From Gongronella butleri (Eukaryota; Mucoromycota; Mucoromycetes; Mucorales; Cunninghamellaceae), in NCBI GenBank assembly GCA_025201375.1, contig JAIWZP010000048.1, positions 124,001 through 188,000 on the forward strand: a stretch of 64,000 bases of DNA, written 5' to 3'. How positions within the stretch are numbered: the first letter of the stretch is position 1; the number at the start of each line of letters is the position of its first letter. The translations under genes and the position numbers were made by a program. Below, piece after piece: positions 1 to 61,586 of the stretch. The notes beneath the pieces were generated by a model, which was not told the origin of the DNA, ran no database searches, and was given only the letters and a program-made list of their open reading frames with translations.

Positions 1-515
1 GCGCTATATGATAATACTGTACGCACTGATTCCCATTAGAAGCTTTGCCCCCCTGTTTGTTATGAAAACTGCAGTAAAAATTGGGGATTGACTTGACCGA
101 TGTCGAGTAAATCGCGATCAAATATTTTGATGAAAAAGTGAATTTTCTCTGCTTGTATTAGCCATCCGTCGGTGAAACTGGTGTCATTCGATAGATATTC
201 AACAGATGCTTTCGACAAGTTAAAAGCGCTGCGTGTTGTCAAATTAGATGCCGAGAACATTGAGGTTGAACATTTTTGTAATGTTTGAACGGCTTTCGCA
301 AGCGTACAAGGTTGCGCATCAGGCAAACAAGCATTCCGGAAATGAGATCTGAACGTGTCTCTTTTGAGTGGTGCCAGATTCGTCCCGATTCACGAAATAT
401 CTCGAGAGCCACTGCTGAATTTGTGAAAAGGTCGATATTTTGAATTCATATGCACAACGAACCAACTGACCTCTGATTTTCAACGCCAAGTTAAAAGAAG
501 GCGCGACCAATGGCT
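1..515. repeat. Dispersed repeat, copy 1 (left end outside window)
   Basis: Non-coding sequence collinear with about 32885-33356 and, in part, with 11748-11925. Shared blocks include the stretch around 125-185 (GATGAAAAAGTGAATTTTCT, then CCATCC and GAAACTGG), a block near 262-300 (GCCGAGAACAT..GAGGT) and one near 410-480 (CCACTGCTGAATTTGTGAAA). Short open frames here do not stay open between copies, so I call it a decayed mobile or dispersed element. Positions 7-21 carry TATGATA and TACTGTA inserted relative to the other copies. Confidence 0.75.
7..21. repeat. TATGATA + TACTGTA footprint-like motifs
   Basis: TATGATA at 7-13 and TACTGTA at 15-21. Both are two TA dinucleotides separated by three bases, the form left when a Tc1/mariner-type element excises from a TA target. 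Confidence 0.55.
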
Positions 516-1094
516 CAACGCAAAGGTGTCTGGAAACAATCCAACCTTGACTTGCTGCGTTTAAAACGCATTTGCTTTAAAAATCTGTTTTTTTTTTTTT
601 GGATTCATTATCATACAGTAGGTACAACAACAAGATTTCAAGGATTTTTTTGAAACGAGGCGCGCCGAACTACAGTAATATAGTGGCAAAGCTTTTACTG
701 TAATGAATCTCTTTGCCAACGCAACAAAAATCATAGTATCCCACTCTTTCTCAAAATAAAGTCCAATCCACCTGTCTCATTCATCATGGCCACACCCCAC
801 CTTTCCTCCACGGGCCTATCCAGCACACATGACCAAAACGTAAAGCATGCCTTCCCCCACACTGGCAAATAAAAAAAAATATGAAGGATAACGCAATAAG
901 AGCTGGCTCTTTTAATGCTTTCAGCTCGTGACAGCTGCTGCGGCGTCGCTCAGGAGTGTAAAATATGGTCCAATGCAGCCATAGCAGGCGCATCTTGACG
1001 TTCCCCACCCACCAAAAAAAAAAAAAAAAAAGAAAAACACACTTTTTTATGTTTCTATGACGGATATAAATTTACAAAAGGAAAAACAAAAGAA
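516..1094. other. Intergenic stretch downstream of LYS4
   Basis: No gene seen. It holds poly-T and poly-A tracts near 588-600 and 1014-1031 and the footprint-like motifs described at 609-702. The 3' region of the minus-strand LYS4 gene lies at its right edge. Short reading frames on both strands look random. Confidence 0.6.
609..702. repeat. Footprint-like ladder and singles
   Basis: At 609-620 the bases read TA-TCA-TA-CAG-TA, two overlapping TA-NNN-TA units. Single copies follow: TACAGTA at 671-677 and TACTGTA at 696-702. TAC(A/T)GTA is the canonical excision scar of Sleeping Beauty/Tc1-type transposons. TATCATA would fit an element with TCA/TGA ends. Confidence 0.55.
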
Positions 1095-10376: not shown

Positions 10377-10922
10377 TATGATATGATACAGTATTATGAT
10401 ACACTTTACACACGACGCACTCGGCATGCACGCCAACGCATGGAGTGTATGATAGTCAGCTGCAATTTCGTCACTCATGTACTTGAGACTGCAAAGCAAT
10501 CTGAAAGGCGCTTGCTGCGGATAAAACGGATATTTCGCGTTTTTTTACATTTTGTGTCATTTACACTATACGTACAGTACACCGTATACAGGCGCTCGTC
10601 TCAAATGTAAATCGCATCTATTATACGTATGATACTGTATGATATGATTTATGATACAAAAGAAAAAAACTATGATACTGTATGATACATCATAAAAGAA
10701 ACGCTGCTGCAGCCGAATGATGGGCAAAATTTGGAGGCGACGAGGGCCCGGTTGCATAATTGCGCGTCTCGGAATACTGTAGTTACTGCATGTTATGATA
10801 TTTGAACGAAATTGCTACAGGATGCTCCAAATCCAGCAAGCGATTTGACGTTCAATTTAGATTGAGCATACAGTAGTATGTACTGTTGTAAGTCTGTAAC
10901 TACCGGTATGTACAGTATCATA
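10377..10922. repeat. Footprint-like ladder island
   Basis: Dense TA-NNN-TA units. Ladders: 10377-10393 (TA-TGA-TA-TGA-TA-CAG-TA), 10628-10644 and 10671-10687 (both TA-TGA-TA-CTG-TA-TGA-TA) and 10911-10922 (TA-CAG-TA-TCA-TA). Singles: TATGATA 10395, 10448, 10650 and 10794; TACAGTA/TACTGTA 10573, 10775 and 10869. Only the triplets CAG/CTG and TGA/TCA recur, which argues against a simple microsatellite. No gene is seen here. Confidence 0.7.
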
Positions 10923-10989
10923 AATTTATTTTACTGCTTAATACTGAGTACTGAGTTTTGCCTAGAACAGTACAAATTGCAGCAGAGGA

Positions 10990-11959
10990 GCAACGCGCTA
11001 CACTGCCCAAAAAAAAGCGCAGAAGGCGCGTTTTCCAGATTTTGAAGGCCTGATGTGCATCCAGAAATTTTTTTACAGCCTGCCTGCCCGCCAATGAAAG
11101 ACGCGTCACGAGAGGAACTACGGCAGCAGTGCGCGGAGCAGTCCGCCCGATTTTTTTTTCAGCCCATGAATTTCAAAAACGCCACATTTGTTTTATTTTG
11201 CATTCATCTCGCCATCTGCATGGTCGAGCCCGTTGAAAAATACAGTAGCTACATCGCGTCGCATTCAGCGCAAATTTTCCAACAATTATGATAAAAAGCT
11301 TAAACCCCTAAAGCGCTACGACCACTTTTGAAAATTCAGGGGCCACTCAGGGGTCACGCTTTTCAAGCTCAGAAAATGCCAAATTTGGGAAATTTCGAAC
11401 TCCGAGTGATCAATGCATCCCAAGCAAGTAACTCCGGCAATTTGCGTTTGGCAGACAAAATGGCAGCCAGGTCGCCCCAGAGTAAAAAAAAAATGCCCAA
11501 AGAGTGACGCATGAATGGCGATCGACTAAAAAAAATGACTGTTTTGGTGCAAATTTTTTTGCAAAAAATTAATGTTTGACACTTCCAAATTAAGTTGCGT
11601 GGATTGCATGGAATTTTTTATTTTATTTTTTATTTTTTTTAATTTTTATTTTGCACACTTTTGTGCGCTGGGTGGGCTGCAGGCTGGTGTAGAAATGATC
11701 GATGCAAAAAGCCAAAACCCAAGCTAGCGCACTGCGAGTCATTCCATCATTAGATGCTTTGGTCCCCTATTTGTTAGTGAAACTGCAATAAAAATCATAG
11801 GTCTATTAGACCGTTGGAGAGCAAATCACGATCAAAAAATTTGATGAAAAAGTGGATTTTCTCTGCGAGTTTTAGCCATCCATCGATGAAACTGGCCTCA
11901 TTCGATACTGTACAGTACAGTAGTGATTCAAGCATTCAACAAATGTTACAGTATTTTCA
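10990..11959. repeat. Dispersed repeat, copy 2
   Basis: Collinear with 32220-33050 over roughly 850 bp, including near-identical blocks such as the one at about 11385-11431 (AAATTTGGGAAATTTCGAAC and following) and the one at about 11312-11358. It is broken on the right by the inverted-repeat element at 11960. It contains TACAGTA at 11241-11247, a 17-bp ladder at 11906-11922 and TACAGTA at 11947-11953. No conserved reading frame. Confidence 0.85.
11906..11922. repeat. Triple footprint ladder TA-CTG-TA-CAG-TA-CAG-TA
   Basis: In repeat copy 2 the context TTCGA-[ladder]-GTGATTC replaces a single TA in copy 1 (TTCGA-TA-GATATTC, TA at 192-193). Copy 3 has CA at the matching point (about 33040). 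The net gain is three 5-bp units. Confidence 0.7.
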
Positions 11960-12428
11960 CTAGGGTTGTTAATTCGAGCGAGCGAGACGAGATTCACCTT
12001 GTCTCGTCTCGTCTCGACAAAATTCTGGGTCATCTCGATCGAGATTCTCCTGGTCGAGATCGAGCGAGATTCGAGCGAGATTCGAGAATGTCACATGACA
12101 AAACTCGAGCATTTTTCTTCAAAACTTTGTCTGGTGGGGTGAAAAAATCCACCAAAAAAGTCGACACAAAGACAAGAGTTGAACCTTTCACATCCTGATG
12201 AGTGCCAAGACAAAGCTTTTTCCCATTGCACCACACCACTAATCTTCTAAAATACATGATGAAACATTACACCTAACCTAATTTTTTTTGTTCGAGATTC
12301 GAGCGAGACGAGCGAGATTTTACTTTCTTGTCGATCGAGACGAGCGAGACTCAAGTCGTCTCGATCGTCTCGATCTCGTCTCGAACCCTCGAGATTTTCG
12401 AGCGAGATTCTCGATTTAACATCCCTAG
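11960..12428. mobile_element. hAT-like MITE with CGAGA/TCTCG subterminal repeats
   Basis: A 469-bp element with imperfect terminal inverted repeats. The left end is CTAGGGTTGTTAATTCGAG and the right end read on the minus strand is CTAGGGATGTTAAATCGAG, 17 of 19 matching. Inside each end lie many GAGCGAGA/TCTCGTCTCG motifs (about 11977-12090 and 12295-12417), as expected for transposase binding arrays. The core (12096-12294) has no transposase frame. TAGGGATG-type ends resemble Ac/hAT. The 8-bp flanks ATTTTCAC and GTTTGCTC match at five positions, so a decayed 8-bp duplication is possible. A TA duplication inside the CTAG ends cannot be excluded. Confidence 0.7.
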
Positions 12429-12846
12429 TTTGCTCGGGCCCAAGGCGAAACGCCACCAACGCCGTGCTGCACGCATCTCTGCGCGCGCCCTTGTATCAAA
12501 AGCGGACGCGTGCGTATCATACGTATGATATCTTTTCGAGGCATTGGCGCCCTGGGAAAGGCTGGAACGCGACACAGTGTGAATTTCATTTTACGAGCTC
12601 GACGATTTATTTGTCGAGCAAAGAGTTAAAATAATGAATGCAGTGGGCCAATTGATAAAGTCGTGTGTTTTCTCAAGCAATTTTTAATGGGATAGCTGTT
12701 TTTTTTTTTATCTCTTTCAATAGAAAAGGGGTGAAAGTGGCAAATCAAATGGGCAACTCCTGCATGATTTTGACGTGCATTCCCAGACAGTGATTTGTGC
12801 CACACCGCGGGACGGCGGGTTGCCTAAAAAAGATGACTTGAGAAAA

Positions 12847-14612: not shown

Positions 14613-14869
14613 TGAAATCTCATCTTTTTTTCAATACAAAAAATTATCACGTTCCTTTCGTTTTATAATGTTCTGTGATTTTATGATATTTGCTCTTTTT
14701 GTTGGTGCGCATTGAAAAAGTGGACGAGCGCGTCCGGCCAATTTGGCTGGCAGATGCGGGAAAAATGGAGGGGAGAGGATGGTCTTTTTGGCCGCCGCCT
14801 CGATTTTTTTTTTTTTCCCTTTTTCTTGCCGCTCCCTTCCTTTTCATTTTCGATCTATAAAAAGCAAGT

Positions 14870-32100: not shown

Positions 32101-33356
32101 AGTGGATAGAAACTGACGCGTGCTATCATTTCAGTGCCTGAGCCATCGTGCTGCACAGCACAAAAACATGTGAAATTCCTTTTAAAAACCAAAGCGCGTG
32201 TTATTCAGACATTGCCCGCCTGCTGTGCCTCCAGAAATTTTTTTACAGCATACCTGCCCGCCAATGAAACCTGCGTCACGGCATAAACTCTAGCCCAGTG
32301 CTCAAGAAGGATCCGCCCGATTTTTTTGGACTCGAAAATGCCAAAAACCTCAGATTTGTACTATTTTGCATTCATCTGGCCATTTGCATGATCGACCCCG
32401 CTCAAAAATACCTGCATCGAAATCAGCGTAAAATTTTCAACAAAAAAGCTTAAAACGCCAAAGCGCTACGACCACTTCTGAAAAATTCAGGGGTCACTCA
32501 GGGGTCACACTTTTCAATCTCAGAAAATGCCAAATTTGGGAAATTTCGAACTCCGAGTGATCAATGCATCCCAAATAGGTAACTCCAACCATTTGCTATT
32601 GGCAGACAAAATGACATGTCGCCCCAACTTCAAAAAAAAGCCCAAGGAGTGACGCATGAACGGCGATCGACTGAGAAAAGTGCCTACTTTGTGCAAGTTT
32701 TTTTTCCAAAAATTTAAGGTTTGACACTTCCAAATTAAGGTGGTGGATTGCATGGAATTTTTGTTTTTTTTTAATTTTTTTATTTTTTAATTTACACGTT
32801 TTTGTGCGCTGATGAGTGGGTGGCAGGCTAGTGAAATTACCGATGCAAAAAGTTAAAACACAAGCTAGCGCGCCGTAAGTTATTGCATTAGGTGCTTTGC
32901 TCCCCTATTTGTTGTAAACTGCAATAAAATCACAGGTTTATTAGACCAGTATCGAGCAAATCGCGATTAAAGATTTTGGTGAAAAAGTGAATTTTCTCTG
33001 CGATTTTAAGCCATCCATCGATGAAACTGGTCTCGTTCGGCAGAGATGAAAGAGGTGCCTTCGACACGTTAAAAGCGCCGCCAAGCCTTGTCCAATCCGT
33101 TGCCGAGAACATCGAGGTCAAAAAAATTGAAATGTTTGAACGACTTTCACAAGCATACAAATATCATGAATCGGGCAAACAAACATTCTGGAAACGACAT
33201 CCAAGCGTGTTTTTTTTTGAATGGTGCCAGTTTCATCCCGATTCGCGAAATATTTCGAAAGCCACTGCTGAATTTGTGAAAACATCGATATTTTGGATTC
33301 ATCCGCACAACGACTCAACTGACCTCTGGTTTTCAACGTCATGTCGAAAAAAGACG
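32101..33356. repeat. Dispersed repeat, copy 3 (fullest copy)
   Basis: The longest copy: the left 0.8 kb matches copy 2 (10990-11959), the right 0.47 kb matches copy 1 (33-515), and the left end matches copy 5 (48841-49085). It lacks the TACAGTA insertions seen in copy 2 at the matching sites (TA at 32409-32410 and CA near 33040). A plus-strand frame of 129 codons (33021-33410) is not kept in the other copies, so I do not call it a gene. Confidence 0.82.
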
Positions 33357-34500: not shown

Positions 34501-34733
34501 AGCATGTAGCTAGCCAAAAAGCATAAATCACGATACCGGTAAGCCTCATGATAAAATACAGTTCTAAGCACTTTATAGCGAGCATTGCTGCTGATTATTT
34601 TAATGAGTTAAGGATTTTCTAGCGATTTTGCAAGGAGGTCGGTCGGCATTTTATGGCAGAAAAATTAGGTCTTCGTCGGAATCTCGGATCGCTGCTGCGC
34701 CAGTTACAACACGGGAAGGTACGTACAGTACAG

Positions 34734-34998
34734 TAGTAGTAAAAAAACATGCCTTCTTGTACGTATTTTGCGAAAATGAAATACAGTATTGGAAAAACCA
34801 ATCAAGGACTACGGTGGTGGTACTTAACTCGGTACTTCTTCTTCTGTGCCAGGATCCTCCGCCCCGCGTCGTTCCAGAAGACATGCGCCACGCCTTCTTG
34901 ACGACTGTACAGTAGAATCTGGGGTGGTGGAGAAGTACGGTAGTGTGAACAAGAAAACAATAAGACAAGAAAATACAATCGCAAACAGATGTACTGTA
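34734..34998. repeat. Footprint-like island
   Basis: TA-CAG-TA-CAG-TA at 34734-34745, TACAGTA at 34782-34788 and 34908-34914, and TACTGTA at 34992-34998. Nearby singles are TACTGTA 33440-33446 and 34355-34361. Confidence 0.6.
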
Positions 34999-48283: not shown

Positions 48284-48840
48284 ATTCAGTCCCCTCCGTT
48301 TTTGTATATTGATTTGATTTCATAAAAAATACTTTGTCACCTTGGTTTTTCATGAAAATTCGCTTGTTCTTGCCTGCCTGTCATTCAATTTCTACAGTAT
48401 TGCCATTTTACCAGCGGCATGAGACTACAGTAGAGGATGCACAACTTTAGGGGTTTTGATACAATATACAGAAAAAAAAATATGATATGACAACCGTATC
48501 ATATAATACAGGAATACGTATCTAAAAGAACTAATTTCGCAATGTTTGTTTCGCAACACTTACATTATCTCAGGAACCTACAGTAGACCTCTTCTCGGAT
48601 TTGAAAAGGCCATTGCTTACGACCTTACGTAGTACGTACATTACAAGCCTACAGTATGATAATGCGTCTCCGGCATCCCGCATCCGTTTGAAAAAAAAAA
48701 TCGGCCAAGCCGCCAGCGTCCGAGAAAATACATAGAAGCTCAAATTTTTTTTTTTTTTTTTACGTATCAAAGGATTTTACACGCAACAACGTAAGTACAG
48801 TAAACCACACGGATCGACCATTTTTAAATCGCCTTGTTGG
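48284..48840. repeat. Footprint-like island downstream of IML1
   Basis: TACAGTA at 48393, 48426, 48579, 48653 and 48796. TATGATA/TATCATA at 48481, 48497 and 48658. 48653-48664 reads TA-CAG-TA-TGA-TA. No gene seen. Confidence 0.65.
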
Positions 48841-49085: not shown

Positions 49086-50342
49086 CCATTAAATGAATCA
49101 TCGGCCGGACAAGTAAAAATAGTGTACGGTATTGTGTACACAAAACACAATGCGGTACCCTGAGGAATCGATTTTGTAAAAATTGTGGCTCGGTGCCAAA
49201 AAAAAAAAAAAAAGCGATTACATTAAAATCGCGTCAATTCAGCGCGTTGACACGCGACATTTTGCCGAGCATTGATGCTTTAATTGGCAAAAAATGTAGT
49301 AAAACGAATAGCAAAGCATGCCAGGACTCTGTGAACTTAACTTTGAACACAATGTAATGCAATCTTGCAAAAAATTAAAGCAAAAATAAAAAAATTACAG
49401 CACCTGGTATTCCCGCATGATCTCTCACTGCAGTACTAACCAGGCCGTACTATGGATCGCTGCAGAGATCGGACGGGATCTGGCGCTTTCATAGTCGTAT
49501 GGCCGTAACATGTTAATGTTTTAGCTTGGCTCAACACATCGCCGCTTTTCGGCAATTCGGCCGCCGAAAAGCCGAACCAATAAGTGAATCCAAGTTCCCA
49601 AAAGCTGTTGTGATTGGCTGATCTTCGTCATGGCATGATTTAAATTTGACAGGTGGCGCAAAATGGCTTTTGCTCTGAGAAAACAACGGCATTGTGCGCC
49701 TCAAGGGGCTGCCGTTGGCACAAATGGTATGTAAAAGCACCATGAAGATAAAAAGCTAGCGCGCAAAAGACACCAATGCTGACAAAGTGGCTGTTGCTGT
49801 CAAAAAACCCAGTTTCGCCGTTGCGATAAAAAATGTGGGCGTGTCAATGTGCGTTGCTGCGATCGAGCAAAAAAAATAGGGGGGGGAGCGCTAGGTCGAT
49901 CCGTTCAAATTCGAGTTACGAGCGCTTGATGATATTTGTTGATTGTGAATGCGTTGGCGCGACCATTGGTCTACTTAGACACACATGTACCGCGTCAAGT
50001 CGTCCAGAGCGACCGTAGTCCATTTGATAAGGCTCGCACTATGCAAGCCATGGACAATTAGTCAGACAGCTGTCGAGAAAAAGGGTCATTTCGTGATTTT
50101 CAAAGATTTCGACTGAAAATGGCGAGTGAGCGGGGCTGTAGCTATGCACGTGGGCTTTTTTGAACGCCAATTTCTACGCGCATATTTCAAAATGAGATGA
50201 TTGCCAAGCGAACAGTTGATCAAAGGTAATATGAGCTTCAAAGCACATTGTGCCAGTTTTCGCAACACAAAGCCGTAGAGACTCGACGTACGGGGTGCTG
50301 GCACAAGGACGAGAAGATTGTAATATGATGGTACAGTGGGCA

Positions 50343-60395: not shown

Positions 60396-61586
60396 ATGTC
60401 GCAGTCCGACCACGTTCGTTTCTCTCCCTTTCCGTTTCAAACTATCTTTTGCGAGATGCATCCCCTCACACAAGCGAAACGAGACGAAATCAAAGTTTGT
60501 CTACTGAATGGCAAGTCAAACCTGCAAACGGCGCACGACTGTGGCGTCAGTCAATCTTCGGTGTCAAGAGAGCGAATCAGGAACGGTCTTTGCAGGCCGC
60601 CCCGCGACGCGTCGACTACAAAAAAAATCAAGCAGCTTCTTCTCGACGGCATATCTATGAATAAGATTGCTCGAGAGTGCAGCGTGCCGTGGGACAAAGT
60701 GCGAAGGATACAATTTTTGAACGACATCCCGGCGAATAACCGCAGAACATATGACGAAAGCACGCTTGAAGAGATCAAAAGGCAACTCATAAACGGCACG
60801 CCAGTGACTACGGTTGCAAAGGATTTCCATGTCGGATTTCAATTTGTGAGGACGATAAAAAAAAAAGCCAGTATCGGCCTAGGCAGCTCAAGTATGAGGC
60901 TCAGTGCGAATAAAATCGAGGAGATCAAGAAACGCCTCCACGACGGCCAATCTGCAATGGCCACAGCGAAATTTTGCGGTGTGAGCTGCACGACAGTTAC
61001 GAAAATTAGAAATCGCTACAAGATCCCAATTACGTGGATGACCAGGTCAAAGCTCAGTGCAACAAAAATCGAAGAGATCAAGAAGCACCTCTGCGATGGC
61101 CAATCTGCTAGTGCCACGGCGAAATTCTGTGGTGTTAGCCGCGACACGATTCGCAAAATTACAAAATACTACAAGATCCCATTTGCTCGGAGGCGCTTTT
61201 CACCCAGTACGACAAAAGTCAACGAGATCAAGAAACAACACCTTTGCGGCGGACGATCTGGCAATTTTACAGCGAAATTTTGTGGAATGTGCTGCGCAAC
61301 AGTTTGCAAATTCCCCAAGCATCACGGGATCTTGCGGCTGCTCAAACAGCTAAACCAAAACGACATAGATCCTTGCTGGACCGTAGAAAAGTGCAAAAAC
61401 AGCAAAGTCACTGCGAGGCATGTGGAAATGTCGCGTGAAACCGAAGGCTTGCAGGTCATCAAGGAAGAATCGATTGAATTGCCATCGTTGACAACCAGTG
61501 GCATGTCCTTCAACATCACCACTGTTGATGTACCATTGGCGAGCATCGAGTTTCTGGACGCGATCCCTTTTTGCATCTTGATTTGA
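60396..61586 (+). CDS. Six-repeat helix-turn-helix protein
   Basis: Single-exon frame of 396 aa; the Met at residue 21 (60456) is an equally good start. Six tandem helix-turn-helix units of about 41-44 residues lie at 24-65, 71-111, 120-160, 168-210, 219-261 and 269-312, spaced about 47-51 residues. Each has the pattern [K/E]I[K/E]xxLxxGxSxxxxAxxxxVsxxxVxxI. Units 4 and 5 are nearly identical (KIEEIKKxLxDGQSAxATAKFCGVS) and unit 6 is close, so the C-terminal half grew by recent duplication. A Cys/Ser-rich tail (320-396) has no known domain. The units resemble the Hin/Psq-type HTH of Tc1/mariner transposases, but no DDE catalytic domain follows. It lies in an island of repeats. Function unknown; DNA binding is inferred. 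Confidence 0.75.
   Translation: MSQSDHVRFSPFPFQTIFCEMHPLTQAKRDEIKVCLLNGKSNLQTAHDCGVSQSSVSRERIRNGLCRPPRDASTTKKIKQLLLDGISMNKIARECSVPWDKVRRIQFLNDIPANNRRTYDESTLEEIKRQLINGTPVTTVAKDFHVGFQFVRTIKKKASIGLGSSSMRLSANKIEEIKKRLHDGQSAMATAKFCGVSCTTVTKIRNRYKIPITWMTRSKLSATKIEEIKKHLCDGQSASATAKFCGVSRDTIRKITKYYKIPFARRRFSPSTTKVNEIKKQHLCGGRSGNFTAKFCGMCCATVCKFPKHHGILRLLKQLNQNDIDPCWTVEKCKNSKVTARHVEMSRETEGLQVIKEESIELPSLTTSGMSFNITTVDVPLASIEFLDAIPFCILI

Follow-up and report, generated by a model that had tools for sequence, protein, structure and literature searches.

Probable Tc1-type scar words in the Gongronella butleri genome and a group of Tc1-like elements that probably integrates almost only beside them

The gene-poor parts of a 64-kb stretch of the Gongronella butleri genome (the window, G000:C54:124001-188000 of a 33-Mb assembly in 110 contigs) contain many copies of two kinds of seven-base words, TAC(A/T)GTA (TACWGTA) and TAT(C/G)ATA (TATSATA), which often interlock in ladders whose rungs, CWG or TSA triplets, alternate with TA. 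The first kind equals the excision footprint that PMC3432063 gives for Sleeping Beauty, raising the question of whether these words are the scars of departed transposons and what relation they bear to the transposons still resident in the genome. As far as comparison of sequences can tell, the words are likely to be Tc1/mariner-type scars, and a group of Tc1-like families is likely to integrate almost only at TA flanked on both sides by CNG (nearly always CWG), old landing sites seeming to become new ones. The features of the window are listed below, where scar denotes a word read in this way.

7..21, no strand: scars TATGATA (7-13) and TACTGTA (15-21), from word counts
609..702, no strand: two-rung ladder TATCATACAGTA (609-620) and single scars at 671-677 and 696-702
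10377..10401, no strand: ladder TGA-TGA-CAG (10377-10393) with adjoining scar TATGATA (10395-10401)
10448..10579, no strand: single scars TATGATA (10448-10454) and TACAGTA (10573-10579)
10628..10656, no strand: ladder TGA-CTG-TGA (10628-10644) and scar at 10650-10656
10671..10687, no strand: ladder TGA-CTG-TGA
10775..10922, no strand: scars at 10775-10781, 10794-10800 and 10869-10875, and two-rung ladder TACAGTATCATA (10911-10922)
11026..11904, plus strand: copy of a dispersed repeat, used as empty-site reference, from similarity search
11241..11247, no strand: scar TACAGTA within the dispersed repeat, from alignment of copies
11287..11293, no strand: scar TATGATA within the dispersed repeat, from alignment of copies
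11906..11922, no strand: three-rung ladder CTG-CAG-CAG, just beyond the end of the repeat match
11947..11953, no strand: scar TACAGTA
12515..12530, no strand: two TSA scars, TATCATACGTATGATA
34724..34735, no strand: two-rung ladder CAG-CAG
48393..48802, no strand: scar group at 48393, 48426, 48481, 48497, 48579, 48650-48661 (CAG-TGA ladder) and 48796

Other features of the window were also recorded. Directly after the scar at 11947-11953 stands an element of about 470 bp (11960-12428), rich in CGAG/GAGA units and with imperfect inverted ends (CTAGGGTTGTTAATTCGAG and CTAGGGATGTTAAATCGAG), one of which has a relative in locus L141. An ORF of 396 aa (60396-61586, plus strand) contains repeated helix-turn-helix units of about 50 aa, with a 153-bp repeat at 60899-61181, and matches helix-turn-helix families of resolvases and transposases, a catalytic domain being absent from its ten Pfam matches. 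A 5S rRNA gene lies at 49392-49510 on the minus strand (Rfam RF00001, 98 bits), and GT followed by at least nine A occurs 13 times, against 4 for its reverse complement, perhaps marking intron starts. Among named sequences, the best Iml1 hits are those to Entrophospora and Basidiobolus, at 47%, which points to a probably early-diverging fungus.

TACAGTA occurs 21 times in the window, TACTGTA 10, TATGATA 18 and TATCATA 5, which gives 31 TAC(A/T)GTA and 23 TAT(C/G)ATA words and agrees with the first-pass annotation of this DNA, where about 30 and at least 15 had been claimed, respectively. These four words make up 54 of the 114 TA-NNN-TA words, the next most common triplets being AAA (8) and TTT (7). 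In Markov simulations of the window (orders 1 to 4, 40 each), the means are 1.0-2.9 for TACWGTA and 1.5-3.9 for TATSATA, with maxima of 6 and 10, and the composition control TAGWCTA is absent from the window; the enrichment thus holds against random sequence. It holds as well for the whole genome, where TACWGTA is found 16,213 times on one strand, against 554 for TAGWCTA and 6,355 for the reversed control without TA (ATGWCAT), and TATSATA 9,529 times, against 1,031 for its reversed word ATASTAT. The gene-poor stretches (10.7 kb in total) hold 28 of the 31 TACWGTA and 19 of the 23 TATSATA words, in line with the claim that almost all of them lie in gene-poor islands, this count not being blind because the boundaries were drawn from the ORF list with the finding already seen; scars beyond the islands lie at 14682, 24918, 34908, 34992, 36475, 58046 and 59911. 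The ladders reported at 10377-10393, 10628-10644, 10671-10687 and 11906-11922 are all in place, whereas the one given as 34734-34745 exists but had been placed ten bases off, its true position being 34724-34735.

Copies of the dispersed repeat offer empty sites with which these words can be compared. A search with positions 11230-11960 gave 991 first-look candidates, of which 40 were scored, 39 of them being copies other than the query itself, with 81-84% identity; further copies lie in the window at 32196-33039 and 34-514. Pairwise alignments among the window and 59 loci, at no less than 75% identity and 200 bp, gave 73 five-base insertion sites, of which 41 are exact steps from TA to TANNNTA; sites were counted as locus positions, so that a scar common to two copies counts once in each. 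Insertions of other lengths seldom have the corresponding form, which is seen at only 28 of 339 sites for lengths 3, 4, 6, 7 and 8 and at 1 of 204 sites for length 2. The triplets of the 41 steps are CWG (26), TSA (11), CSG (2) and AAA (2), and their outer bases are complementary in 39 of 41, as would be the case if identical 3-nt overhangs annealed with their middle base mismatched. Copies are compared at 75% identity or above, many near 80%, and old mutations may blur individual sites. Of the 10 further copies aligning at the scar 11241-11247, 4 show TA, 4 CA, 1 GA and 1 TG. Most copies aligned at 11287-11293 show only A or nothing, so that this site lacks a clean TA as its empty state, and the ladder at 11906-11922 is a plain TA in L013, the sole other copy aligning across. 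Some scars are young, given that one copy of a transposon described below (L060 of family A) has TACAGTA where others, about 99% identical to it, have TA. The reading of the TAC(A/T)GTA words as Tc1-type scars, already put forward in the first-pass annotation, therefore gains support from exact steps between repeat copies, and the words of the window behave as Tc1-type excision scars would. As a separate observation, TA-CG-TA (78 times) and TA-CCGG-TA (22 times) lead their size classes in the window and loci L002-L030, the latter behind AAAA; both are polymorphic between repeat copies (at 3 and 2 sites, respectively) and are possibly other scar forms.

The first-pass annotation had pointed to TA-flanked elements with CAG..CTG ends, and both intact Tc1-like transposases and such elements are present in the genome. 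A genome profile search gave 74 matches to PF13358, several of them within near-identical copies, and none to PF01359 (mariner), for which the positive controls were silent as well. Family A (L050-L058 and L060) is about 1,630 bp long, 98.8-100% identical between copies, and has an ORF of 339 aa and CCG-type ends, TA|CCGTGGCTCTCAA..TTGAGAGCCACGG|TA, with TA at both sides and flanks that differ between copies. Family D (L062) has an ORF of 358 aa starting with GTG and the end TA|CAGTGCCCGGACA; its transposase matches PF13358 and PF01498 above the cut-off, has Sleeping Beauty SB100X as its only PDB sequence match (E 3e-29) and, by manual count in the L062 ORF, shows the 34-residue spacing of DD34E. 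Its inverted repeats, including the ends starting with CAG, are 36 bp and identical in L062 and 43 bp at 93% in L061, and TA stands at both sides in all 20 elements taken with their flanks. Sleeping Beauty-group transposons have CAG-type ends. By its TA flanks, DDE and paired-like helix-turn-helix domains and CAG inverted repeats, family D is assigned to the Tc1/mariner superfamily as Tc1-like. A fold-back element (L021, L023 and L059), about 1,005 bp long, has ends identical to those of family D, and the related ends CAGTRCCC and CCGTRCCC, or near spellings, occur in L046, L047, L049, L053, L061, L066 and L068-L071. Excision of elements with CAG/CTG ends would account for the CWG scars and that of elements with CCG ends for the CSG scars; TAC(A/T)GTA scars are abundant genome-wide, none of them being tied to excision of a family D copy.

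Other elements were considered as sources of scars. A 5.3-kb Tc1-like element with TA|CTGGATTTGTCC ends (TA|CTG...CAG|TA; facing end words at C54:14101 and 19408) has a non-CWG triplet in front of the TA at 5 of the 6 ends read and is a candidate maker of first rungs. Five of its 6 fetched transposase copies lie at most 1.4 kb from a contig end (C5, C6, C15, C86 and C104), these being probably places where the assembly broke. Three pogo-like matches (PF03184, DDE_1) each contain stop codons, and the ends of pogo-like L063 and L064 contain TACAGTAGGTTCTGG, so that CAGTA ends do occur, one L064 end having an extra G; such degraded copies are at most a possible old scar maker. The second element, with TCA/TGA ends, that had been proposed for the TATSATA scars was not found in the stretches scanned, where the only hits were words belonging to the fold-back element or to other repeats, leaving about a third of the scars without a source.

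The main result, which the first-pass annotation lacked, concerns the sites that family D occupies. Its exact end word TACAGTGCCCGGACA, common to the fold-back derivative, occurs 130 times genome-wide, and CWG precedes it in 122 cases, CSG in 5, another triplet in 3 and TSA in none. Among 100 matches listed, 98 form 49 facing pairs, and among these 49 pairs CWG stands on both sides in 42, on one side in 7 and on neither side in 0. For comparison, among 6,434 TA dinucleotides of the window and 29 repeat loci, only 65 have CWG on both sides, and CWG stands on 8% of TA sides. The variable base of the rungs beside family D pairs is near 50:50 (41 CAG and 51 CTG of 92). In 20 pairs picked with their flanks for CWG on both sides, and therefore informative on the outer TAs only, full TA-CWG-TA rungs stand at both sides in 19, the last one adjoining another element, compared with 39 of the 65 CWGTACWG sites in the background (p 0.002), an excess that hints at a target of more than 8 bp or at insertion shaping its own flanks. 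The other CAGTRCCC and CCGTRCCC ends, taken by search word in the loci, have CWG at 18 of 20, a figure computed without 11 rows belonging to family D and without 3 that were judged to be no ends (18 of 23 if these 3 are counted). The CCG-ended family A has CWG at only 1 of 19 distinct ends, L010 and L052 overlapping.

Simpler accounts of the ladders have to be weighed against this. If no target preference existed, any TA of an island could be hit and chance reuse of TAs would make the ladders, and an urn model of random TA reuse (window and 29 loci) does account for much of them, giving 61, 72 and 94 links for pieces of 4,000, 1,000 and 300 bp (94 +/- 8 at 300 bp) against 110-112 seen; ladders also mix CAG, CTG and TSA rungs, CWG and TSA being neighbours in 99 links (window and 78 loci, one overlap removed). 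The ladders alone thus show a modest excess and scar clustering shows little preference, so that the earlier idea that repeated insertion and excision at the same TA built the ladders keeps its support from the mixed rungs, while much of the pattern follows from random reuse. Family D, on the other hand, is CWG-flanked at 122 of 130 ends against 8% of background TA sides, and never adjoins a TSA rung, although TSA makes up about 30% of rungs, while family A in the same genome has 1 of 19; an absence of preference is for these reasons very improbable. Growth of a five-base microsatellite, (TACAG)n, by slippage could explain arrays of period five and the same-orientation runs that exist, such as five CAG at L067 1183, but among neighbouring CWG rungs of the window and 78 loci 50 pairs share one orientation and 43 are opposed, different rung types alternate in the 99 CWG-TSA links, and single steps of +5 are seen at plain TAs. 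The rungs are thus not head-to-tail in one orientation and slippage, whose chances we put close to nil, was rejected. Nor are the words at all likely to be the ends of resident short elements instead of empty scars: some element ends do read TACAGTA (TA|CAGTACCC in the L071 family and TA|CAGTAGG in pogo-like L063), but a search of the window for nine element-end words detected only CAGTGCCC, in three places and at no scar, and repeat copies have TA opposite the word at 11241 and the ladder at 11906. Resident ends were accordingly rejected as the source of the window words.

A closer rival holds that the rungs beside family D are products of insertion: both ends of the element would carry or generate TACWG, as might happen if the two end overhangs mispaired in a circular intermediate. 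The excess of outer TAs (19 of 20 against 39 of 65), the even W beside an otherwise fixed end word and the presence of the same outer rung at 18 of 20 ends of related families would all fit this account. Against it, three copies identical over 1,004 bp (L023, L123 and L125) are flanked by CAG|CAG, CTG|CTG and CAG|CTG, respectively, so that rungs do not travel with the element, and a degenerate but inherited terminal CWG was rejected on the same ground. At element-element junctions (L062, L094/L095 and L071), a single TA and no rung stand between the two, the CTG of one element end serving the next as its rung. Left and right rungs, read on the plus strand, are the same in 29 and different in 17 of 46 pairs (p 0.10), which fits independent rungs and argues against a 7-bp TACWGTA duplication, an explanation rejected because the sides differ in those 17 pairs. 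A search with joined flanks, on five insertions with one rung at each side, gave no clean empty allele for any family D site, and an 87% copy compared at L110 has no TA at the site; the joined-flank search led to a young element, E1 (L141-L149, L109 and L021; TA|CTGTATCTGACACCTGAG..), of which 172 bp recur unchanged at 13 places in addition to L109. At L108, the CTG on the right is the end of E1, with no extra rung between, so that the TA stood between a CAG rung and the CTG of E1; this terminal CTG is fixed in 10 of 10 E1 copies read (9 of the 13 other exact matches having been fetched), the triplets outside E1 being CAG (5), CTG (4) and TCA (1). In L021, E1 shows inner repeats made up of T-runs and GCGCGTGGATGGATGGGCTCAATGTGGTGACC; its other end was not found. 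Finally, the site occupied by an element in L114 shows a ladder in L033, which matches the L114 flanks at 92% identity; both loci have CTG as right outer rung, and on the left L114 has CTG and L033 CCTG. Differing flanks of identical copies, zero-rung junctions and the case of L108 and E1 together indicate that the rungs belong to the target, and their making by insertion is considered unlikely, though less remote than the accounts weighed above. The two readings make different predictions: if family D homes to scars, empty sites of its one-rung/one-rung insertions should hold TACWGTACWGTA, and a plain TA if insertion makes the flanks.

Excision of Tc1-type elements leaves 3-nt overhangs that are paired with a mismatch in the middle. 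On the scar-homing reading, an element would sit between two TAs, and staggered cuts would leave its last three bases at each broken end; the two overhangs would pair at their outer bases, and repair of the mismatched middle would fix either one, so that TA-CWG-TA would result from CAG/CTG ends and TA-TSA-TA from TCA/TGA ends. With every scar the site would gain 5 bp and one new TA, and two rungs would form CWG-TA-CWG, the site apparently chosen by D-type elements. The homing group would comprise family D, the derived fold-back element of about 1 kb and the families whose ends read CAGTRCCC or CCGTRCCC; these would land within ladders of scars or abutting another element's end, and each excision there would leave one more rung and with it a further target, making the ladders a self-feeding landing zone. 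We infer this excision chemistry, the extension of ladders by these same elements and any benefit of sparing genes. Since 678 of 840 ladders in the window and 78 loci have one rung, yet the listed family D pairs never sit at a TA that lacks CWG on both sides, another agent must start the ladders. On balance, and with more reserve than for the site preference itself, we favour a self-propagating target, in which Tc1-like families would be specialised on scars, CWG-TA-CWG would arise from excision or from an element end, and each departure would add a target.

With Sleeping Beauty, Frog Prince and ZB, family D has in common the TA target, CAG-type ends and a related transposase (SB100X), and the scar words of this genome have the TAC(A/T)GTA form of the Sleeping Beauty footprint. 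ZB and, by the same report, Sleeping Beauty and Bari prefer the palindrome ATATATAT around TA (PMC7913693). This preference is not that of family D, which has CWG-TA-CWG in 42 of the 49 pairs listed, a sequence that such scars themselves create. For Stowaway in intron 4 of the Triticeae beta-amylase gene, a single TA has been described as undergoing insertion and excision repeatedly, an element having inserted next to an older footprint (PMC1925063); that account concerns a single locus, whereas here scar-like words number tens of thousands genome-wide, form interlocked ladders, and carry almost all young elements of one group. In aberrant non-TA integration of Sleeping Beauty, the consensus of the target sites repeats the sequence of the transposon end (ACTG) and changes along with it when the end is mutated (PMC7987939), which sets a precedent for end-like targets. 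As presented there, such targets are rarer, mainly aberrant and at non-TA sites, whereas here they are the main mode, at TA sites, and families with CCG ends also sit at CWG. Among open-licence PMC papers listed for such footprints, for reinsertion at them and for target choice of Tc1-type elements, no report of scar ladders or scar-homing elements was found.

Tc1/mariner elements are used as tools because they can insert at almost any TA, and a family found almost only on an 8-bp scar-like site, together with a family in the same genome that lacks this habit, offers a direct route to the determinants of target choice. If the self-propagating reading is true, excision and insertion would stand in positive feedback and maintain a growing network of landing strips common to several families. 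This suggests that a cut-and-paste element may spare its host by having excision scars as its next targets. The scars would also be a readable record of very many excisions, where transposons usually leave only survivors.
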